DNA from: Nitrospirota bacterium
GTDB taxonomy: Bacteria > Nitrospirota > Leptospirillia > Leptospirillales > Leptospirillaceae
Assembly: GCA_021816465.1 (NCBI GenBank)
Contig: JAKAYF010000021.1
Span: forward strand, 1-32,014
Direction: 5' to 3'
Length of the DNA stretch: 32,014 bases
Position numbers and translations under genes: made by a program. Shown piece after piece: positions 9,736-24,424 of this stretch. Below the pieces are notes generated by a model. The model saw nothing but the letters and a program-made list of their open reading frames with translations, ran no database searches and was not told where the DNA came from. Position 1 is the stretch's first letter. Each line of letters starts with the position of its first letter.

Positions 9736-9763
9736 GACATTCCGAAGGTTTCCCCGGAATGTC
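9736..9763. terminator. Hairpin between convergent genes, possible terminator
   Basis: GACATTCCG (9736-9744) pairs perfectly with CGGAATGTC (9755-9763) around a 10-nt loop. It sits between the stops of the aminopeptidase (+) and the YHS/SLOG gene (-) and overlaps the latter's stop by 2 bp. No T-run follows on either strand, so it is not a classical intrinsic terminator. Confidence 0.4.
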
Positions 9764-10484
9764 AGCCGGTGATATGGACCGATGGTCTTCGGAAGTGATT
9801 GGTTGTGTACTCGTTCATGAGATTGTTCAAAAGGATGGCCGGGTCCGGGTGGTAAAGAAGACGGCTTCCGGTTTCCTTGCCGATTTTTTTGACGATGTCT
9901 GGAAGGATTTCGGTAATTCCTCCGGAACCTTCCAGAACTCCGATCAGCTTTCCTTCATCATAGGCGATGGAAAACTCGCCAAGGGTTCCCGAGTGGCCTC
10001 CGACGATCAGTACAAGATCGCTTGAGCGGATATTGATGACCTCGCGCCCCATCAGTCCGGACCCTGTAAAAATGATAATATCGAAAAGGTCGTTTGGTGA
10101 CTGGTATCTGTTGATGTGTTCCTGCTCCGAAAGGGCGGGCGATATGCCGATCGAGACCCCACCGACCTCCTTGAAGCCGGATGCGGCTTCGTATGGAAGT
10201 CCCGGACAGGCTCCAGTGATGAGTCCCAATCCGCGATTGGCGATTTCCCTGCCGAGACGTCGGGCAATTTCCCTGTGCTTGTGTTCAAGGTCGCCGGATG
10301 CGGCGCCCATGACACCAACGGTAAAGAGTCTTCCCGGAGGCGCGGAGACCTTGCCCGGGTCTTTTTCAAATATTTCAAGGCACTGGGGACTGTGAAAATA
10401 AAGGATTCTCCCCTTGTGGATGCGTATCGCATAGGAATGCTGCAGTGTTGGGATTTTTGTTCCGCAAACGGGATCGACTGTCAT
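9762..10484 (-). CDS. YHS-domain/SLOG (TIGR00725, LOG-like) fusion protein
   Basis: 240 residues with two parts. Residues 1-45 form a YHS-type metal-binding module: DPVCG with C7, then YFHSPQC with C35. The family's common YFCS is YFHS here, with His replacing one Cys. Residues ~52-240 form a Rossmann-like domain of the SLOG/lysine-decarboxylase-like superfamily, closest by eye to the TIGR00725 group. It shows TGACPGLPYEA around residue 90 and GGHSGTLGEF at 162-171, the nucleotide/phosphoribohydrolase loop (compare PGGxGTxxE of LOG enzymes). LOG proteins cleave nucleoside monophosphates, while many SLOG proteins bind nucleotide ligands. No enzyme activity can be assigned. ATG start at 10484, with AAGGAG 4 nt upstream. 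It is divergent from the ynfA-like gene. Confidence 0.8.
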   Translation of the reverse strand: MTVDPVCGTKIPTLQHSYAIRIHKGRILYFHSPQCLEIFEKDPGKVSAPPGRLFTVGVMGAASGDLEHKHREIARRLGREIANRGLGLITGACPGLPYEAASGFKEVGGVSIGISPALSEQEHINRYQSPNDLFDIIIFTGSGLMGREVINIRSSDLVLIVGGHSGTLGEFSIAYDEGKLIGVLEGSGGITEILPDIVKKIGKETGSRLLYHPDPAILLNNLMNEYTTNHFRRPSVHITG

Positions 10485-13831: not shown

Positions 13832-15445
13832 ATGGGCGGGTCCCTTGAAAAAGCCCGGGAGATGGCCCGGAGACTTGATCTTTCCGCAGAGGGAATCCAG
13901 CGAAGGAAAGACTTTCTCCGGATTGCTCCGGAAGAAGAGGTCGCTGTCCGGGCTCTTGTTCCGTTCTTCAGGGAGCATGGTCCGGAGTTCGTGCAGATTC
14001 TTCATGATCGCATCAATTCTTTTCCCGACAGCCGGGTGATCCTGGAAAAAACACACTCCCAGGCATGGCTCAGGGCAAGGCATGCCGAGTATTTTGTCGA
14101 ACTGGTCTCCGGGCCCTATGATCAGGGTTATGTCCACAACCGCCTTGCTGTGGGGATTATCCACCAGGTGATTGGTCTGGGTCCTGAGTGGGTCCAGTCT
14201 TCCTTTGCGCTTTTTCTGGAGTGGGCCAATGCTCTCCTCAGGGCCGATCCCGCTTCTCCGTGCGTCAATAATCCTGCTCTTCCCGAGATCCTCCTGAAAA
14301 TTGTCTTCTTTGACTCTGGCCTTGTCATGGACTCCTATTTCATGGCGGAACGGGAGCGCATGGATGTGCTGTCCCGTGTTTTTGAAAAGAATGTGGAGGC
14401 TGTCTGGATTCTGGACGGACAATGGTCTGTTTCTCACGCCAACCAGACCTCTGAAAAAGTTATCGGATGGAGTCCGGAGGAGCTTGCTGGAAGATCTCTT
14501 GAGGAGTTTCTCGGGAAAGAGCAGGGGCTGTCTTCTCTTTTCACCGGCGAGATCGGGAAAGTCGCCATGGAGGAGGGCCATTGGGAGGGATCCCTTTTTC
14601 TGCGGCACAAAAATGGCAGCCTCTTTCCTGTCTGGGCTACGGTTAATGTTTTTCGCCGCCATCCATCGGAGGAATCCATGTATATCCTGGAGTTCAGGGA
14701 CAGGACCCAGGAGCAGAAAATGCAGGATGAACTCCTCCAGAAGACAAAAGATCTCCTCCGGTCCAATCGCGATCTCGAACAGTTTGCCTATGTTGCCTCC
14801 CATGATCTTCAGGAACCTCTTCGCATGGTGACAAGCTATACGCAGCTCCTCGCCCGTCGATACAAGGGGAAATTGTCGGATGAGGCCGATGAGTTCATTC
14901 ACTATGCCGTTGATGGTGCGATCAGGATGCAGTCCCTGATCAACGCGCTTCTGTCTTATTCGAGGGTCGATTCCATGGGAAAGGAGCTTGTTCCCTGCGA
15001 ATCCCGTGTGGCTCTTCAGAATGCCCTGGAAAACTTGAAGATGGCCATCTCTGAATGCGGTGGACAAATTGAAGCGGAAGACCTGCCTGTTATTCTTGGA
15101 GATCCGGTCCAGCTGATGCAGCTGTTCCAGAATCTGGTGGGAAACGCCATCAAGTTTCGCTCCCCCGACAGGGCTCCGGTTGTGAGAATATCTGCTCGCC
15201 GGGATGGAAAATTTTGGCTTTTTTCAGTTTGTGACAATGGAATTGGAATCGCGCCACAGTTTTACGAGAGAATTTTTGTGATTTTCCAGCGCCTTCACAC
15301 CAAGGAAGAATATCCCGGAACGGGTATAGGGCTTGCCATGTGCAAGCGGATTATCGAACGACATGGCGGGACAATCCGGGTGGAATCCCGTCCGGGAGAA
15401 GGGTCTGTGTTCCATTTTACGCTCCGGTCATTCGGGGAGGGGTAG
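13832..15445 (+). CDS. Globin-coupled PAS sensor histidine kinase
   Basis: 537 residues from ATG 13832; a TTG at 13820 is an alternative, and neither has a strong ribosome site. Residues ~10-175 form a globin-coupled-sensor (protoglobin-like) domain. Its signature [11 protein letters not shown]...[13 protein letters not shown] places the proximal heme ligand at H111. A PAS domain follows at ~180-290 ([14 protein letters not shown]... to [11 protein letters not shown]). The transmitter is of the Cph1/phytochrome type: phosphoacceptor H324 in [11 protein letters not shown]-box [10 protein letters not shown] around 433, G1 DNGIGIA around 468 and G2 GTGIGLAM around 496. There is no membrane segment, so it is cytoplasmic. 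Globin-coupled sensors bind O2, NO or CO through heme. Downstream lie an Rcp1-like regulator (44-nt gap) and a receiver-GGDEF-EAL protein, the likely phosphorelay partners. Confidence 0.88.
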
Positions 15446-15489
15446 CAATATCCGGAGGTCGGTGCCGGAGCAATGAAGAAGGATGTGCG

Positions 15490-15954
15490 ATGATCAGAAT
15501 TGAAGAGATGGGAAGACCGGTAGAATTTCTGCTTGTGGAGGACAATCCGGGTGATGTGCGACTGACCAAAGAGGCATTAACAGACAGCAAGGTCAGGAAC
15601 AATCTCAATGTTCTGGGAGATGGCTTTGCCGCCATGGATTTCCTTCACCGGAATCCTCCCTACGAGAATGCCCAGAGGCCTGACATTATTCTTCTTGACC
15701 TGAATCTTCCCAGAATGGATGGGCGTGAGGTCCTTTCAAGGATCAAGGCTGATCCGGATCTCAGGCGAATACCGGTGGTCGTGATCACTTCCTCGGAAGC
15801 AGAGCAGGATATCCTTAAAACCTATGACCTTCACGTGAACTGCTATGTGACGAAGCCGGTGGATCTTGACCAGTTCATCAAAGTTGTCCAGTCCATCGAA
15901 ACGTTCTGGCTGACAATCGTAAAGCTTCCCAGCCCCGACATCCTGGAACGGTGA
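15490..15954 (+). CDS. Rcp1-like single-domain response regulator
   Basis: 154 residues forming one CheY-like receiver with no output domain. The acidic pocket is E17/D18 in [10 protein letters not shown], the phosphorylation site is D70 ([13 protein letters not shown]), the switch Thr/Ser lies in [10 protein letters not shown], and the invariant Lys is in YVTKPVD. The extended βα loop ([13 protein letters not shown]) and the C-terminal Phe-rich tail are typical of Rcp1, the partner of the cyanobacterial phytochrome Cph1. This agrees with the Cph1-like transmitter encoded just upstream. I start at ATG 15490, which has AAGGA 6 nt upstream. It probably carries the phosphoryl group onward or acts by protein contact. 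The next gene starts 4 nt past its stop. Confidence 0.92.
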
Positions 15955-15957
15955 CCG

Positions 15958-18081
15958 GTGATTGAAAAGTCTCTCAAGGTTCTCGTTGTCGAGGATAATC
16001 CCGGAGATGTTCTTCTTGTGCAGGAAATGCTTCGCTCTGCGAGCGAAGACAGGATACAGCTTTTTTCTGTCAATCGGATTTCCCGGGCCGGCGGTCTTCT
16101 GGATGAAATGTCTGTCGATGCGATTTTACTCGATCTGGGACTTCCCGACAGCAATGGTCTTGAAACGCTTCGGAATATCCATGAAGTCTGCGAGGAGACT
16201 CCGATTATCGTCCTGTCTTCCCAGGAAGATGAACAGCTTGCGGTGACGGCCCTTCAGGTTGGTGCGCAGGACTTTCTGGTCAAGGGAACATTCAATGGGC
16301 ATATCCTGATCCGGTCTATCTTCTATGCCATCAAGCGAAAAGAGATGGACTCGAAGCTTTTTTATATGGCCTATCATGATCCCCTGACCGGACTGTCAAA
16401 CCGCAAGCATTTTCATGAACACCTGCTGCACTCGATTGCCTGGAGCGAACGGGCGGCACAAAAGTTTGCTGTTATTTTTTTTGATCTGGACAATTTCAAG
16501 AAGATCAACGACACGTATGGTCATTTGGCCGGGGATCACCTGCTTAGGCAGGTCTCCGACCGGATCCGGCGCGTTGTCCGGAAAGTGGATACCGTTGCCC
16601 GAATGGGCGGGGACGAATTCGCGATCATTCTGAACAATCTCGCAAACTTCAGCTACGTCGCCCATATGGCGAGAAAGATCAGGAAATATTTATGTCGTCC
16701 CTATACTGTCGAATCCACTCTTCTTGAAATCGATTTTTCGATGGGAATCAGCCTTTATCCTCTTGACGGGCGTAGCGAGTCCGATCTCGTCCGGAAGGCT
16801 GACAGGGCCATGTATCAGGCCAAGGCGTCCGGAGCGAAGAGGTTTCATTTCTACAACAATGAAATGGACGACAGGGAAACCAGCAGGCAGAACGTTCGTG
16901 CCGACTTTAAAAATGCGATCAAAAACAACGAGCTCTGCCTCCACTATCAACCGATTATCAGTCTTCGTACCCATGAGATCATGTCTGTCGAGGCGCTTGT
17001 TCGCTGGAGACACCCCAGAAGGGGGTTCCTGTTTCCCGGAGATTTCCTGACGGAGATTATGGGGACGGAGTTGATTGTTTCTCTTGGAGATTTCGTTTTT
17101 GAATCAGTCTTTTCATGCCTTTCCAGATGGAAGTCCCAGGGGATCCTGATCCCGGTCAGCGTCAATGTCGATCTCATGCAGATGAAACAGCCTGATTTTT
17201 ATAAAAAAATACTGAGGCTTATGGCCCGTTATCCGGATGTTCCTCCACACCTTTTAGAGATAGAAATTCTCGAGACGACTTCTGCGGAGGACTTTCCAAA
17301 CCTTCGGGAAGTTCTTGATTCGCTCCATGGGCTGGGGGTCAGTCTTTCCATCGATGATTTCGGGACAGGGTATTCCTCTCTTTCCTATCTTAAGAAAATC
17401 CCGTTCGATACGCTGAAAATAGACCAGAGTTTTGTGATCAGCATGCTTGAGAACAGGGAAAATCTTGCCATTATCGAAAGCATCTCCAGCCTGGCAAGGA
17501 TTTTTGGCCGCAATGTGGTAGCGGAAGGCATGGAAAAGATGTCCTACAGTCCGATGTTGATGGCGATGGGATGTGAGATGGCCCAGGGATATGCCATTTC
17601 GAAACCGCTTCCGCCTGAGGAGTTTATTGATTGGAGATCTCTCTGGCTGGAAAGGGACCACTCCGAAGGAGTCCTGCCTGGCTCGAATATTGCCGAGCTG
17701 TCTATACTTCTGACCCAGATATCGCATCTGTCCTGGATACAAAAGATTATTTCCATGGCTGAAAAAGTGGATGATTCTTTCTCCTCCATACCTGAGGAAG
17801 AAGGGTTGGAACGATCACCTGTTGAGGGCTGGTACAGCAATGAAGGCGTTTCCCTTTACGGCGATATCCCGACATTCGAACGACTTTCCTCGACCCACAG
17901 GGAGTCGGTGGACCTTGTTCGGGAAGTTTTCAGGAGAATCCGAGAAAAAAATAAAAATGCCACCAGGTATTATTCCCGCCACCTGCTTTTGCAGAAAGAC
18001 TCCCTTCTTGCTCTTTATGGAGCCCTTCAAAAAGATGCTCTCTTTCATTCGATAATGCGTGGAAAATTGGAAAAAGCCTGA
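15958..18081 (+). CDS. Receiver-GGDEF-EAL c-di-GMP protein with CZB-like tail
   Basis: 707 residues from a GTG 4 nt past the preceding stop. Domains in order are as follows. Receiver at 5-125, with E12/D13 and phosphorylation site D59 (LLDLGLPDSNG). GGDEF at ~135-300, with active site GGDEF at 217-221 and an inhibitory I-site RKVD at 208-211 at the canonical distance. EAL at ~315-560, with EAL at 345-347, EIEILETT at 434-441, DDFGTGYSSL at 466-475 and KIDQSF around 487. Both catalytic signatures look intact, so it could make and degrade c-di-GMP, with phosphorylation or the I-site setting the balance. The last ~125 residues resemble a CZB (chemoreceptor zinc-binding) domain: H590 in SHLSW, GWYSNEGVSLYG and H647. 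The expected Cys and last His are absent. It likely acts as output of the globin kinase encoded upstream. Confidence 0.92.
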   Translation: MIEKSLKVLVVEDNPGDVLLVQEMLRSASEDRIQLFSVNRISRAGGLLDEMSVDAILLDLGLPDSNGLETLRNIHEVCEETPIIVLSSQEDEQLAVTALQVGAQDFLVKGTFNGHILIRSIFYAIKRKEMDSKLFYMAYHDPLTGLSNRKHFHEHLLHSIAWSERAAQKFAVIFFDLDNFKKINDTYGHLAGDHLLRQVSDRIRRVVRKVDTVARMGGDEFAIILNNLANFSYVAHMARKIRKYLCRPYTVESTLLEIDFSMGISLYPLDGRSESDLVRKADRAMYQAKASGAKRFHFYNNEMDDRETSRQNVRADFKNAIKNNELCLHYQPIISLRTHEIMSVEALVRWRHPRRGFLFPGDFLTEIMGTELIVSLGDFVFESVFSCLSRWKSQGILIPVSVNVDLMQMKQPDFYKKILRLMARYPDVPPHLLEIEILETTSAEDFPNLREVLDSLHGLGVSLSIDDFGTGYSSLSYLKKIPFDTLKIDQSFVISMLENRENLAIIESISSLARIFGRNVVAEGMEKMSYSPMLMAMGCEMAQGYAISKPLPPEEFIDWRSLWLERDHSEGVLPGSNIAELSILLTQISHLSWIQKIISMAEKVDDSFSSIPEEEGLERSPVEGWYSNEGVSLYGDIPTFERLSSTHRESVDLVREVFRRIREKNKNATRYYSRHLLLQKDSLLALYGALQKDALFHSIMRGKLEKA

Positions 18082-18332: not shown

Positions 18333-18341
18333 AATATTATG
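18314..18341. promoter_or_regulatory. ArsR-family operator: perfect 11-bp palindrome
   Basis: CATAATATTAT (18314-18324) and ATAATATTATG (18331-18341) are exact reverse complements separated by the 6-nt spacer AACATT. The AT-rich interrupted palindrome is of the kind bound by dimeric ArsR/SmtB repressors. It covers the -10 and ends 19 nt before the repressor start, as expected for autorepression. The palindrome is seen directly; binding is inferred. Confidence 0.75.
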
Positions 18342-18359
18342 AGAGTTGAGGAGAGAAAA

Positions 18360-18662
18360 ATGATGACAGGAAAAATCCCTCCGGGAAAGGCTGTAAAGGG
18401 AGCCAGATGTCTACGGATCCTTGGGCATCCAGCGCGTCTTTCGGTGATTGCCATTCTTGCGGAAGGGGAGAGGAGCGTGAACGATCTTGCAGGACTTGTC
18501 GGAGTGAGTCAGTCCAATCTTTCCCAGCACCTTGCCCTCCTGAAAGACAGGGGGATCATCGACTCTGTCCGCGAGGGACATCAGGTTTTTTACCGGATTG
18601 CCAATCCGAGAGTCATGGAGTTTATGCGTCTGATGGAGGAGCTGTTTTGCCATGAATCCTGA
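18360..18662 (+). CDS. ArsR/SmtB-family transcriptional repressor
   Basis: 100 residues from ATG 18360, chosen because GAGGAG (18348-18353) lies 6 nt upstream. An earlier ATG at 18339 overlaps the operator. The winged helix-turn-helix is plain: GHPARLSVIAIL, SVNDLAGLVGVSQSNLSQHLALLKDRGII, then the wing SVREGHQVFYRI. The usual α3 metal motif (ELCVCDL of ArsR/SmtB) is missing, since SVNDLAG has no Cys. There are only two Cys, C17 near the N-terminus and C97 in LFCHES at the end. The recognition helix and tail recall the BigR/SqrR group, which senses persulfides through two Cys, but the first Cys sits elsewhere here. It overlaps the TolC gene by 11 nt and should repress the whole efflux operon until an inducer acts. 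The inducer is unknown. Confidence 0.87.
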   Translation: MMTGKIPPGKAVKGARCLRILGHPARLSVIAILAEGERSVNDLAGLVGVSQSNLSQHLALLKDRGIIDSVREGHQVFYRIANPRVMEFMRLMEELFCHES

Positions 18663-20103
18663 AATCCGTTTTGCCGGAAGGTGGTCTTTGCCCTTTTCCC
18701 GATTCCTTCTCTGCATGCTGTTTTTTGGGGTCTTCTGGAAAGCCTCCGGGGCCAGTGCCCTGACTTTGTCGGAGGCCGTCTCCCAGGCCCTTTCCAAAAA
18801 CCCGTCCCTTCTCGAATCAAGCCTGTCGGGCGCGATCATGCATGCCAGAAAGATTCAGGCAATGGGAGCATGGCTTCCGGCAATGTCTGTAAGCGAGTCG
18901 GCCATCAGTACGACCAACCCCCTGAACGCTTTCGGCCTTCTGCTCAATGAGGGGGTTGTTCAGGCGGGGCAGCTTTCGAATGTCAATGAGCTGAACAACC
19001 CTTCGGTTACCCAAGCGTTCGGTTTTGCGGCGGTTGTTTCCGAGACGGTTTTTCAGGGTGGCAGGCGATATTTTACCTACCAGGCATCCACGAAAGGGGA
19101 GCAGGCAGCGAACCTGCAGGTTGAAAGAACCCGGGAAGAACTGATCTCCAATGTCACGAAGGCTTATTTCAATGTGGTTGTTTCGGAGAAAAATCTTGAA
19201 GTGATTGACCGGGAGCGTGCGGCAGTGCAGTCCTCTCTTGCCCGGGCTTCCGAGTCCTACAAGGAGGGCGGAATCGACAAGACGATGTTCGATGAGGCAA
19301 AGCTCGAATCCCAGTCCGTCGAACTGTCCTATTTCAGGGCGAAAAAAGCTGTGGAAGTGAACAAGATGAAACTTGCGAGACTGATGGGTATTCCATCTGG
19401 AAACCTTCGGGACGCATTGTCCAGGGAGCGCTTCAGTCTTCCTCCCGGAGGGGTAAGGTGGGCCCGTTCTGTTATCGATCGTTACTCGACGGCGAAAAAT
19501 CAGGCTGTTTCTTCAGAGGCCCTTTCTCACCGCCCGGACTATCAGGCCAGCGTTCTGGAAGTGAAAAGTGGTTCGAGCCAGCTCTCCGCAGCGCATTCAG
19601 GGTTTTGGCCGGCGCTGTCTGCGCAGGGAATTTTTAATGAATATGCGCAGGGAATCAATACCTGGGGAAAGCAGGACTACACGGTCATGGGGACGCTAAG
19701 CTGGTCGATCCTGAATGGGCTCTCCGACAAGGAGGAAAGTGAAAGGTCTCATGCAAGGCTTCGTCAGGCCCTCTATTCCAGGCAGGATCTGAAGTCAAAA
19801 ATCGTTTACGAGGTGGAGAAGGCCCGGAGTGATGCCAGAGTGCTGGAGTCGACGCTTGAGTTTGACAGCCAGAAGGTCAGCATCCGTTCGGAAGAGGAAC
19901 AAGTGGAAAAAGATCGGGTGACCCAGGGGATTGATCCCCCGGTCAAACTTCTCGAAGCGGAGGTTCGTCTGGCCAATGCCAGGCTTGCATGGCTTTCGGA
20001 CAAGACTGCACTTATGGATGCGGGGGTTGATCTTTTGCTGGCAACAGGGGAGCTGGGCAACAGGGGGATGGTTCCGGGAGCGATGGAGGTTTCTGGAAAA
20101 TGA
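18652..20103 (+). CDS. TolC-family outer-membrane efflux protein
   Basis: 483 residues with a signal peptide (RFLLCMLFFGVFW core, cleavage around ASA). The mature protein then starts LTLSEAVSQALSKNPSL, a standard outer-membrane efflux protein opening. The two-fold repeat of long helical segments and β-strands is visible: one half around residues 40-250 and the second around 290-470. TolC-like proteins form a trimeric barrel and periplasmic tunnel, the exit duct of tripartite pumps. The ATG at 18652 lies inside the repressor gene (11-nt overlap). The stop overlaps the adaptor start as ATGA at 20100. It works with the next two genes as a single pump. Confidence 0.9.
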   Translation: MNPEIRFAGRWSLPFSRFLLCMLFFGVFWKASGASALTLSEAVSQALSKNPSLLESSLSGAIMHARKIQAMGAWLPAMSVSESAISTTNPLNAFGLLLNEGVVQAGQLSNVNELNNPSVTQAFGFAAVVSETVFQGGRRYFTYQASTKGEQAANLQVERTREELISNVTKAYFNVVVSEKNLEVIDRERAAVQSSLARASESYKEGGIDKTMFDEAKLESQSVELSYFRAKKAVEVNKMKLARLMGIPSGNLRDALSRERFSLPPGGVRWARSVIDRYSTAKNQAVSSEALSHRPDYQASVLEVKSGSSQLSAAHSGFWPALSAQGIFNEYAQGINTWGKQDYTVMGTLSWSILNGLSDKEESERSHARLRQALYSRQDLKSKIVYEVEKARSDARVLESTLEFDSQKVSIRSEEEQVEKDRVTQGIDPPVKLLEAEVRLANARLAWLSDKTALMDAGVDLLLATGELGNRGMVPGAMEVSGK

Positions 20104-21194
20104 AAGGTTTTATGATGGAAAAGTTGATAGCACTATGGAAAAAGACGTCTTTTACGGGTGTTATTGGAGTGTCTCTCCTGTGTCTGGAGTCTTCTTGTCA
20201 TGAGTCGTCCAGACCTCCGGAAAACAAGATCCTCCCTTCTGTCAATGTCCGTGTCTCGGAGGTCACACATGGAGGTGCCACTCATTTGTCCAGGGTTTCC
20301 GGTGTTGTCGAAGGTGAAAAAGATGCCAGGATCAACAGCAGGGTTCAGGCAAGGGTCGAGTCTGTCCGTGTTCGGACAGGCCAGCTGGTTCGCAAGGGAG
20401 ATCTTCTGCTCAAGCTCTCCGGGCGGGCCGTTTCCGACAGGGTGGCTGCGGCCCGTGCCCGCTTTGATGATGCCCATGGGCGATTCTTGAGAGTGGATGC
20501 CCTCTATCAGAAAAAAGAGGCTTCAAGGCAGGAATGGGATGAGGCCAGGGCCCGGGACCTGATGGCATCCGCAGACTACTCTGCAGCAAAAAATGCGTTG
20601 TCGATGACTCGCATTACCGCTCCCTTTTCCGGCAGGGTGGCTCTCCGGAACGTCAGGGTCGGGGATGTTGTCAGCCCCGGTTTTCTTCTTGCTGAAGTCC
20701 TGAGGGAGGGGAATCTCCGGGTTACGGCCAATATTCCAGAGCATCTTGCAGGTGATATGGTGCCCGGGACGCGTCTTGCCTTCAGGGTCAAGGTCAATGG
20801 AACGACAAGGGATTTACCGGCGACGGTCCATTCGGTCTCGCCGAGATCCGACCCGGGAACCCATACTGTCCTCCTGAGGGCGGATCTCGGTGGTGTTCCC
20901 GGGTTGCGTCCGGGTTCTTATGGGGTGCTCCTGTTGCCCTCCGGCAAGGAGTCCGGTGCTCTTGTCCCGAAAAGTGCCGTGATTGATCACGACGGAATCC
21001 GGGAAGTTTTTGTCGTCGAAAACGGAATGGCGGAACTTCGGTTCATCAGGACCGGTCATCTGAAAGCTTCTCCTGCCCATGGTGGTCCTTTTGTAGAGGT
21101 GCTGTCGGGGCTTAATCCCGGAGAGAAGGTTGTCACCTTTCATGATGGAGAGCTGATGAATCAGAGTCCTGTCCACGTGTTGGGAGAAAGCTGA
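20100..21194 (+). CDS. RND efflux periplasmic adaptor (HlyD/AcrA family) lipoprotein
   Basis: 364 residues. The N-terminus has KK, a hydrophobic stretch (GVIGVSLLCLES) and the lipobox LESSC, so it is likely lipid-anchored at Cys33. The barrel-sandwich (lipoyl-like) halves flank a short helical hairpin: RINSRVQARVESVRVRTGQLVRKGDLLLKL first, then MTRITAPFSGRVALRNVRVGDVV. The β-barrel and membrane-proximal parts follow, ending PGEKVVTFHDG. The adaptor links the inner-membrane pump to the TolC-like duct. The ATG at 20100 overlaps the preceding stop and has GGAGG about 10 nt upstream. The TGA at its end overlaps the pump gene's ATG by one base (TGATG at 21192-21196). Internal ATG codons at 20112 and 20115 are possible alternative starts. 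Confidence 0.9.
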   Translation: MKGFMMEKLIALWKKTSFTGVIGVSLLCLESSCHESSRPPENKILPSVNVRVSEVTHGGATHLSRVSGVVEGEKDARINSRVQARVESVRVRTGQLVRKGDLLLKLSGRAVSDRVAAARARFDDAHGRFLRVDALYQKKEASRQEWDEARARDLMASADYSAAKNALSMTRITAPFSGRVALRNVRVGDVVSPGFLLAEVLREGNLRVTANIPEHLAGDMVPGTRLAFRVKVNGTTRDLPATVHSVSPRSDPGTHTVLLRADLGGVPGLRPGSYGVLLLPSGKESGALVPKSAVIDHDGIREVFVVENGMAELRFIRTGHLKASPAHGGPFVEVLSGLNPGEKVVTFHDGELMNQSPVHVLGES

Positions 21195-24100
21195 TGTTGG
21201 ACAGCCAGAAACATGGATCTGGATTCGCGGGATGGCTTTCCCGCACGTTCATCGATTCTCCGCTGACACCGGTCCTGATCCTGATTTCTCTTGCTCTTGG
21301 TGGCCTGGCGATTATGAAAACACCAAGGGAGGAGGATCCCCAGATCAAGGTTCCCATGATGGATCTTTTTGTTTCGGATCCGGGAATGTCCGCAACGGAG
21401 ATGGCCCGCCACATCGTGGCACCGCTTGAGCGTCATCTTTCCCGCATCAAGGGAGTCAAGGCCGTCTACTCCCGCTCCGAAAGCGGAACGGCTGTCGTGA
21501 CTGTTCGCTTTCATGTCGGCGAGCCTATGGGGAGGAGCCTGGTCAAGATATACAGCGAAGTCATGAAGAGCCGGGGATATCTTCCCAGGGACACGGGCCC
21601 TGTGGTTGTCAAGCCGATGGATATCAATGATGTGCCTGTCATGGCGGTGACATTGTATTCGGGAAGCGAGTCCGATGCGGTCCTGCGTCGTCTTGCGGAG
21701 GAAGTTGCATCGAGTTTCAAAAGAATCCCGGGAACGGGGCAAGTCACGGTCATTGGTGGAAGAATGCGCACTGTCAGGGTTGTCCTGAGTCCCTCCGCTC
21801 TGACGGCACACCATTTGACCGCTCTTGATATCTCCTCTGCGATCTGGCGGTCGAACAGGAGTATCGATCTCGGAAGCTTTGACCGGAACAATATTTCCTA
21901 TCAGGTAGCGCTTTCCGGTTCCCTGACAAAGGTTTCCCAGCTTCGGAACCTGGTCGTTTCCGTTCAGAACGGAAAAAGCATTCATCTGTCCCAGGTTGCA
22001 ACGGTGACCGATGGTCCCGGTCCGCTTGACAGTTATGTCTGGATCGGCCATCCACCAACTTCCCCCGAGGCGGGAGACCAAACCGCGGTGACTGTTGCGG
22101 TCGCCAAGAAAAAAGGAATCAATGCTGTTCTTGTTTCCGGCAAGATTCTCGAGAAGATGAAAGATCTCTCGGCAAGAAAGATTCCTTCTGATATTCACTG
22201 GACTGTGACCAGAAATTATGGTCATACGGCCAATGAAAAAGCTGATGATCTTTTATTGCATCTTGTTGTTGCAACAATTGCGGTGATTCTTCTCGTCGCA
22301 CTCGGTCTTTCTCTTCGGGAGTCCGGTGTTGTGGCCGTTGCAATCCCGGTGACGCTTGCCCTCACATTGTTCGGATCGATGATGATCGGCTACACCGTCA
22401 ACCGGGTTACCCTGTTTGCTCTGATCTTTTCTATCGGAATCCTGGTGGATGACGCAATCGTTGTGGTTGAGAACATTAATCGCCATTTTCATTTCCTGGG
22501 AGGAAAAAGAGACCGGGATACCCTTCTTGAAAGAGCCGTCTATGCGGTTGGAGAGGTTGGCAATCCAACAATCCTGGCAACTTTTACGGTGATAGGAGCC
22601 CTGTTTCCCATGGCGTTTGTCAGCGGGCTGATGGGGCCTTATATGCGTCCGATTCCGGTTAACGCCTCGCTTGCAATGACCGGGTCTCTGCTTGTGGCCT
22701 TGACGGTGGTTCCTTTTCTGGCTCTCCGGATGGTTCCCCCGGCAGGTCATCACAACAAGGTGATGGGGAAGATCGACGGGGGAATCCGCCATCTGTACAG
22801 GGTGATCATGGTTCCGCTGCTGGAGTCACGATTGCGGCAAAATCTGTTTTTTGGAGTGGTTCTTTTCCTGACGGTCGGGGTCATGGCTTTTTTTGAGACC
22901 AGGACGCTTTTGCTGAAGATGCTTCCCTTCGACAACAAGAGTGAGCTCGATGTTGTTATTGACATGCCGGCGGGGACGACACTTGAGACGACCGCCCGAA
23001 CGGCTCTGGCGCTTGAAGGTGTTATTTTGCGCGACCCGTCGGTTTCTTCGGATCAGGCCTATGTCGGCCTTGCTGCCCCGTTCGACTTTAACGGACTTGT
23101 CAGACATTACTACCTGCGGCGTGGGAAAAGGGTTGCCGAAATCCATGTCAATCTCCTGCCGAAAGAGAGGCGTTCCCTGCAAAGCCACCGGATTGCGGAA
23201 GAACTCGAACGGAAGCTGTCTCCTGTGGCGGCATCCTTCGGTGCAAGGATCAAAATGGTCGAAGTGCCGCCAGGGCCTCCGGTCATGGCCCCGATCGTTG
23301 CCGAGGTGATGGGGCCGGATCAGGCTTCGATCACCGCCTATGCCGAAAAGGTTCGGGATGTTTTTCGGCATAGCAGTGGGGTGATTGATGTCGATTCAAC
23401 TCTTCCCGATCCGCAGGTCCGCTACAGGATCCGTGTCGATCAGGAAAAGGCGGCCCTTTCTGGGGTTTCGACCGAGGAGATTGAAAAGGCTCTGGCGCTT
23501 GGACTGCACGGTGAGACGGGTGAATTGCATACGGCTTCGGGAAAAGGCTACGTCCCCATTATTCTGGAGGTTTCGAGGAAGGATCGTTCCTCCATCAAGG
23601 ATCTGGATTCGATTATGGTCCGATCGGGCAACGGTCATCTTGTTCCCCTGGGAACGCTGATCGATGTCTCCAAAGAACAGGCTCCTGCCGTTCTTTACCG
23701 CAAGAATCTTCGTCCCGTGGTCTATGTAACGGGCAATACAACAGGATCGGGCAGGAGTCCTGTCTATGCGGCCGTGGATCTTTCGAGAAAGCTTCCTCCC
23801 GCGGACCTCTCGGGCCACATGGAGCCTGTACGCCAATATTTCTGGGGTTATCCGTCATCGAGTGAAAATCTTTCTGTCCGCTGGGGTGGCGAATGGCATG
23901 TGACCTATGTGACCTTCAGGGACATGGGGATCGCCTTTGTTGCCGCGATTGTGGTCATTTACCTCCTGATCGTGATTCAGTTCAAAAGCTATGTCACCCC
24001 AATGATCATCATGTCGCCTATTCCGTTAGCCCTGATTGGTGTGATCCCGGGCCATGTGTTGCTGGGGTCGAACTTTACGGCGACCTCAATGATCGGTTTT

Positions 24101-24424
24101 ATTGCCCTTGGAGGAATCATGGTTCGGAACTCGATCCTTCTGGTGGACTTCATGCATACGAAAAAAGCAGAGGGAGTTGACCTGAAGCAGGCGGTTCTGG
24201 AAGCCGGTGCGATCAGGACACGTCCCATATTGCTGACAGCGCTGGCGTTGGTTGCCGGCTCCTTTGTCATCCTCTCCGATCCGATTTTTCGGGGAATGGC
24301 GATTGCGCTTCTGTCCGGGTCGATCGTTTCGACGGTCCTGACGCTCGTGCTTGTTCCCCTCCTGATTGCCCGGGTGGAGGGGAGTCGCTGGTCGGAAGGC
24401 CGGCGGGAAGTGGCGGGAAACTGA
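21194..24424 (+). CDS. RND-family efflux pump inner-membrane protein (AcrB-like)
   Basis: 1076 residues, the size of AcrB-type pumps, with twelve helices: TM1 near residue 30, then clusters at about 335-530 and 870-1060, separated by large periplasmic loops. Helix 4 carries GILVDDAIVVVENI, whose paired aspartates match the proton-relay Asp407/408 of AcrB. That fits drug/organic-substrate pumps better than the CusA/CzcA heavy-metal group, though this is by eye. PREEDPQIKVPMMDLFV and MARHIVAPLERHLSRIKGV near the N-terminus are typical of a large, poorly characterised RND branch. It takes substrate from periplasm or membrane and drives it out through the adaptor and TolC-like duct using proton flow. 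Control by the ArsR-type repressor is expected. The specific substrate is unknown. Confidence 0.93.
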   Translation: MLDSQKHGSGFAGWLSRTFIDSPLTPVLILISLALGGLAIMKTPREEDPQIKVPMMDLFVSDPGMSATEMARHIVAPLERHLSRIKGVKAVYSRSESGTAVVTVRFHVGEPMGRSLVKIYSEVMKSRGYLPRDTGPVVVKPMDINDVPVMAVTLYSGSESDAVLRRLAEEVASSFKRIPGTGQVTVIGGRMRTVRVVLSPSALTAHHLTALDISSAIWRSNRSIDLGSFDRNNISYQVALSGSLTKVSQLRNLVVSVQNGKSIHLSQVATVTDGPGPLDSYVWIGHPPTSPEAGDQTAVTVAVAKKKGINAVLVSGKILEKMKDLSARKIPSDIHWTVTRNYGHTANEKADDLLLHLVVATIAVILLVALGLSLRESGVVAVAIPVTLALTLFGSMMIGYTVNRVTLFALIFSIGILVDDAIVVVENINRHFHFLGGKRDRDTLLERAVYAVGEVGNPTILATFTVIGALFPMAFVSGLMGPYMRPIPVNASLAMTGSLLVALTVVPFLALRMVPPAGHHNKVMGKIDGGIRHLYRVIMVPLLESRLRQNLFFGVVLFLTVGVMAFFETRTLLLKMLPFDNKSELDVVIDMPAGTTLETTARTALALEGVILRDPSVSSDQAYVGLAAPFDFNGLVRHYYLRRGKRVAEIHVNLLPKERRSLQSHRIAEELERKLSPVAASFGARIKMVEVPPGPPVMAPIVAEVMGPDQASITAYAEKVRDVFRHSSGVIDVDSTLPDPQVRYRIRVDQEKAALSGVSTEEIEKALALGLHGETGELHTASGKGYVPIILEVSRKDRSSIKDLDSIMVRSGNGHLVPLGTLIDVSKEQAPAVLYRKNLRPVVYVTGNTTGSGRSPVYAAVDLSRKLPPADLSGHMEPVRQYFWGYPSSSENLSVRWGGEWHVTYVTFRDMGIAFVAAIVVIYLLIVIQFKSYVTPMIIMSPIPLALIGVIPGHVLLGSNFTATSMIGFIALGGIMVRNSILLVDFMHTKKAEGVDLKQAVLEAGAIRTRPILLTALALVAGSFVILSDPIFRGMAIALLSGSIVSTVLTLVLVPLLIARVEGSRWSEGRREVAGN

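Follow-up and report, generated by a model that had tools for sequence, protein, structure and literature searches.

The closest precedent for the gene triad described here is the AfGcHK/NmpU-NmpT-NmpS system of Anaeromyxobacter and Myxococcus, where two genes adjoin that of a soluble globin-coupled histidine kinase, one for a receiver protein and one for a protein that joins REC to an output, and both products are phosphorylated by the kinase (PMC11841059, PMC8697598). For NmpU, the AfGcHK homolog, the two targets are NmpT, a likely phosphate sink, and the receiver of NmpS (PMC11841059), and the output of the system is a REC-kinase feeding an NtrC-like regulator. AfGcHK is active with six-coordinate heme and inactive in the five-coordinate Fe(II) form, and its distal Tyr45 matters for recognising O2 (PMC8697598). 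A second study compared globin-coupled sensors that have a distal Tyr in common, a residue with an important part in binding O2 (PMC10882959). A related gene arrangement is the cyanobacterial Cph1-Rcp1 cassette, in which a kinase with a PAS-GAF-PHY input is followed directly by an Rcp1-like regulator and then by a REC-X gene. Protoglobin sensors that control c-di-GMP, namely DosC/YddV and GCS-HD-GYP, are one-component fusions with a distal Tyr. Direct proof of a stimulus acting on the sensory domain of a histidine kinase to steer c-di-GMP is described as exceptionally rare (PMC8846402).

The window examined here (the whole 32,014-nt stretch of DNA that was analysed) comes from a 1.98-Mb Nitrospirota genome, about 80% complete, which has Leptospirillum and Nitrospirae MAGs as its named relatives. 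At 13832-18081 on the forward strand it carries three co-directional genes with operon-like packing (gaps of 44 nt between kinase and regulator and 3 nt between regulator and the third gene), encoding a globin-PAS-histidine kinase, an Rcp1-like regulator consisting of a single receiver, and a REC-GGDEF-EAL protein, hereafter GE (Table 1). This composition had been proposed from a sequence-only reading, and both the ORF layout and Pfam bore it out, with every domain named for the triad scoring above curated cut-offs (HisKA 6e-11 and HATPase 2e-27 on the kinase; 1e-19 for the receiver of the regulator and 1e-19 for that of GE). We favoured ATG 13832 over TTG 13820 as the kinase start because the Met of the homologs falls at the ATG position; for the regulator, a longer ORF from GTG 15340 would overlap the kinase gene. 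Residue numbers are counted from ATG 13832, ATG 15490 and GTG 15958. No RNA element was found in the whole window with Rfam at the gathering threshold, and promoter and terminator scans gave results near chance. Elsewhere in the window, 9762-10484 (-) encodes a YHS-like domain (below the Pfam cut-off) fused to a SLOG (LDcluster4) domain.

Table 1. Coordinates of the triad and its features in the window.
Feature	Position	Strand	Details
Kinase (HK), Globin-PAS-HisKA-HATPase	13832..15445	+	537 aa; ATG start matches homolog N-termini
Protoglobin domain	13892..14353	+	PF11563, E=9.6e-21; similar to AfGcHK, HemAT and 2w31 structures
His58 codon (distal B10 Tyr position; AfGcHK Tyr45)	14003..14005	+	alignments
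His111 codon (putative proximal heme ligand; AfGcHK His99)	14162..14164	+	alignments
PAS domain	14372..14701	+	PF00989, E=3.3e-6
Cph1/BphP-type transmitter (HisKA + HATPase_c)	14774..15427	+	Pfam, Foldseek, tree
Phospho-His324 codon of kinase transmitter	14801-14803	+	
Rcp1-like single-domain response regulator (RR), phospho-Asp70	15490..15954	+	154 aa; ATG start; PF00072
REC-GGDEF-EAL protein (GE), receiver Asp59	15958..18081	+	707 aa; GTG start; Pfam and residue table
GGDEF domain, motif and I-site intact in window protein	16369..16839	+	PF00990, E=1.6e-47
EAL domain, catalytic residues all intact	16900..17607	+	PF00563, E=6.6e-64
C-terminal helical bundle of GE	17620..18078	+	AF2 pLDDT 84; weakly DosC-MID/CZB-like

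A scan with one genome per species yielded 12 relatives including the globin (L009-L019 and L062), all named Nitrospirae or Leptospirillum, and in every one of these other Leptospirillaceae loci the three genes are present in the order of the window. The triad also stands in this order in L109, a complete genome of the same genus, with identities of 78, 93 and 79% for kinase, regulator and GE; among the orthologs, regulator identity ranged from 76 to 93%, far above the conservation of GE. L109 also has flanking genes in common with the window, uvrB-DUF4321 upstream and arsR-tolC-mfp-RND downstream (in the window, the genes that come immediately after the triad, at 18339-24424 (+), encode an ArsR-type regulator, TolC, a membrane-fusion protein and an RND pump). 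In L018 and L062, some window genes from 3.0-9.7 kb directly precede the triad and uvrB is absent, and the remaining loci have essentially none of the tested window neighbours within their flanks. The triad thus stays together while its surroundings differ between loci. Between the window and L109, dN/dS was about 0.12 for the kinase, 0.04 for the regulator and 0.10 for GE, values that are only indicative with dS near saturation. Because 12/12 loci and L109 keep the order, and because dN/dS against L109 is low, the co-occurrence of the three genes is not chance. The H, N and G boxes of the kinase and the receiver Asp and Lys are conserved among homologs, and across 396 Nitrospirota genomes the globin profile gave matches above 250 bits only in the family of the window, the next best match scoring 130 bits.

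One related genome departs from this pattern. In G004 (L151, G004:C55, 595-3757) the kinase is frameshifted and shortened, what is left of it continues into the last part of the Rcp1-like gene, and little of the regulator survives, with the REC-GGDEF-EAL ORF still intact; the enzyme may therefore act without that kinase. This retention, together with the far better conservation of the regulator than of GE, fits a scheme in which the main targets of the kinase are the Rcp1-like regulator and further partners, GE being a co-transcribed neighbour with an input of its own. We regard that scheme as improbable, since the triad is kept together across lineages and the third place in Cph1-Rcp1-type cassettes is usually taken by a REC-X gene.

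The cassette itself could be followed well beyond the family. The transmitter shares 37% identity with the RpBphP2 kinase domain (Foldseek) and has an Rcp1-like single receiver directly downstream, so that the Cph1-type transmitter and Rcp1-like partner named by the sequence-only reading were upheld by Pfam and by the loci we read. Similarity to the transmitter brought up 68 related kinases from outside the family, a cyanobacteria-rich set whose fractions are not population rates; 55 of them have an Rcp1-like gene directly downstream, and in 50 of those a REC-X gene comes next. In the loci read, the inputs that Pfam shows include phytochrome, MASE3, MASE6 and ETR1_N, and the place of X is filled by a kinase, by PAS-GGDEF, by PAS-GGDEF-HD or by PAS-GGDEF-EAL. 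Two Phormidium loci (L056 and L072, 5495-10870) encode a phytochrome, an Rcp1-like regulator and a REC-PAS-GGDEF-EAL protein consecutively, and are a light-input version of the globin circuit. The window triad thus resembles the Cph1-Rcp1 cassette in transmitter type and gene order, and differs from it in that a globin-PAS input replaces PAS-GAF-PHY (Pfam found no GAF or PHY match in the kinase) and in that X is GGDEF-EAL, as in Phormidium, rather than a kinase.

That the globin had taken the place of a light sensor, as previously suggested, holds in the sense of an exchanged input module, for which Phormidium supplies the phytochrome counterpart. Descent of the transmitter from cyanobacterial phytochromes was not supported: in the transmitter tree (a quick search with SH-aLRT support only and some long branches), the Leptospirillaceae kinases group together (SH-aLRT 99), apart from a clade of phytochromes (96). 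The same tree places two more types of globin kinase from the phylum at other points, and since the three types occupy separate positions, globin-kinase fusions seem to have arisen at least three times. In another Nitrospirota family (L143-L146), a globin is fused directly to a BphP-like kinase that adjoins an Rcp1-like regulator, as in the Leptospirillaceae; unlike the Leptospirillaceae triad, these loci lack the PAS domain, show no REC-GGDEF-EAL gene and belong to a separate transmitter clade, and the member of that family that we read, L136, has a distal Tyr.

Turning to the input, the globin fold expected at the kinase N-terminus was recovered by domain search above the cut-off, which, joined to a kinase output, places the protein among the globin-coupled sensors, and the domain aligns with the solved AfGcHK, HemAT and 2w31 globins. 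His111, previously picked out as the heme ligand position, aligns with the proximal His99 of AfGcHK and is invariant (13/13). At the distal position, Tyr45 of AfGcHK is replaced by His58 in the kinase and in every ortholog, the broken G004 copy included, so that the distal Tyr which marks the O2-sensor subset of globin-coupled sensors is absent from all orthologs aligned. We also sampled 92 further protoglobin sequences, most of them from three other phyla, with a bias to high scorers and not counting the window or AfGcHK; position B10 is Tyr in 84 of them and His in 4. B10-His proteins of another phylum are L195, L208, L209 and L217. Within the phylum, the globin sensors that rank next have Tyr at the distal position, among them a GGDEF-EAL globin protein from the same genus, and in the membrane-anchored globins of the phylum the residue varies (Tyr, Ser, one His). 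These four protoglobins and the one membrane-anchored globin led us to reject a B10 His unique to the Leptospirillaceae kinase; by alignment, a distal His is uncommon and recurrent among protoglobins, and fixed in this kinase.

With His58 where the distal Tyr would bind O2, plain O2 sensing by the kinase, one of the two switches (O2 or NO) first put forward, cannot be assumed from these alignments. His58 may hold O2 as the putative ligand, or it may ligate the iron, in which case NO, CO or the redox state would be sensed, and these options are sub-readings of our best explanation; the AF2 model of the kinase, of moderate confidence (pLDDT 73), is without heme geometry. A classical O2 sensor, in which His58 would donate a hydrogen bond in place of Tyr and O2 would activate the kinase as in AfGcHK, has a little under an even chance: the globin fold and proximal His are present, a distal His stabilises O2 in other globins, and relatives are aerobic iron oxidisers. 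Against it stands the absence, in all kinase orthologs, of the distal Tyr common to the globin-coupled sensors of the published comparison (PMC10882959). Rather unlikely is that His58 ligates the iron to give a bis-His, six-coordinate heme switched by redox or displaced by strong ligands only. His58 is invariant at B10, and six-coordinate globin sensors exist in GsGCS and HGbRL, but their ligands come from His66 at E11 and a Lys at E10, respectively, not from B10 (PMC4476040), and a B10 His also occurs in the 4/92 protoglobins above. If His58 can bind iron, a switch like that of AfGcHK would differ here.

With respect to the output, the window GE retains an intact GGDEF motif, metal Asp and I-site RKVD as well as the receiver residues Asp, Ser and Lys, and at the residue level has the makings of a bifunctional enzyme. 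The earlier description of intact GGDEF, I-site and EAL signatures therefore applies to the window protein, while across the family it extends to EAL only: the EAL catalytic residues are intact in 13/13 proteins (residue table), and GGDEF features are eroded in most homologs, with the I-site lost in four (L014-L017), the otherwise conserved AMYxAK stretch eroded in nine (L009-L017) and GSDEF in place of GGDEF in L062. The homolog in L019 is frameshifted, possibly through an assembly error. Because EAL is intact in all and GGDEF eroded in most homologs, c-di-GMP hydrolysis is the more likely shared output of the family; GE is predicted to break down c-di-GMP, and may synthesise it as well. The C-terminal 150 residues form a helical bundle in the AF2 model and have no accepted Pfam family; the top Foldseek match, 4zvc (DosC middle domain), was not significant (E=0.12), and a CZB zinc-binding domain was rejected (12.6-15.5 bits against a cut-off of 29.4, E=0.02-0.18, zinc ligands not conserved).

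Building on the domains, motifs, gene order, conservation and cassette modularity observed, we propose, with a probability of roughly 0.66, that the triad forms a single circuit. A soluble globin-coupled kinase would read the ligand or redox state of a putative heme held by His111, and the signal would run from the globin via the PAS domain to the Cph1-type transmitter. By analogy with NmpU, the kinase would feed both neighbours, phosphorylating Asp70 of the Rcp1-like regulator, which would serve as a phosphate sink or side branch, and Asp59 of GE. Phosphorylation of Asp59 would then raise or lower the c-di-GMP activity of GE, most likely EAL hydrolysis, with GGDEF acting as a GTP-regulated partner or a second enzyme. 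A globin kinase feeding two receivers had been presented as an unusual route; it is already known for AfGcHK/NmpU (PMC11841059, PMC8697598). Unlike that system, the Leptospirillaceae kinase has a PAS domain between globin and kinase, a distal His and a Cph1-type transmitter, its partner is a single receiver and its output is a c-di-GMP enzyme. As in DosC/YddV and GCS-HD-GYP, a protoglobin sensor would control c-di-GMP, here by a two-component route. A more specific version, which we consider unlikely, makes the lineage-fixed B10-His kinase a sensor of redox or NO with a six-coordinate heme and has it control the hydrolysis of c-di-GMP through phosphorylation in acidophilic iron oxidisers, organisms for which redox state is a key variable.

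The triad is real, conserved, coherent and made of known parts, and it is the combination and the unusual heme pocket that appear to be undescribed. Our literature search found no paper on a Leptospirillum globin kinase; the L. ferriphilum 'dosC' is probably another gene, since it is described as encoding a GGDEF protein (PMC8357829). To a specialist, the surprise would lie in a distal His that is fixed and in a phytochrome-Rcp1 cassette that comes in a globin version, not in globin kinases as such. The Cph1-Rcp1-REC-X cassette emerges as a kit whose sensors and outputs can be exchanged, and the Leptospirillaceae kinase as a natural test of the role of a distal His in a globin sensor. c-di-GMP is a biofilm signal, the triad is found in iron-oxidising Leptospirillum bacteria, and leptospirilli form biofilms that are important in bioleaching and acid drainage; with this compact and conserved unit, the steering of c-di-GMP by a kinase could be put to the test in these organisms.
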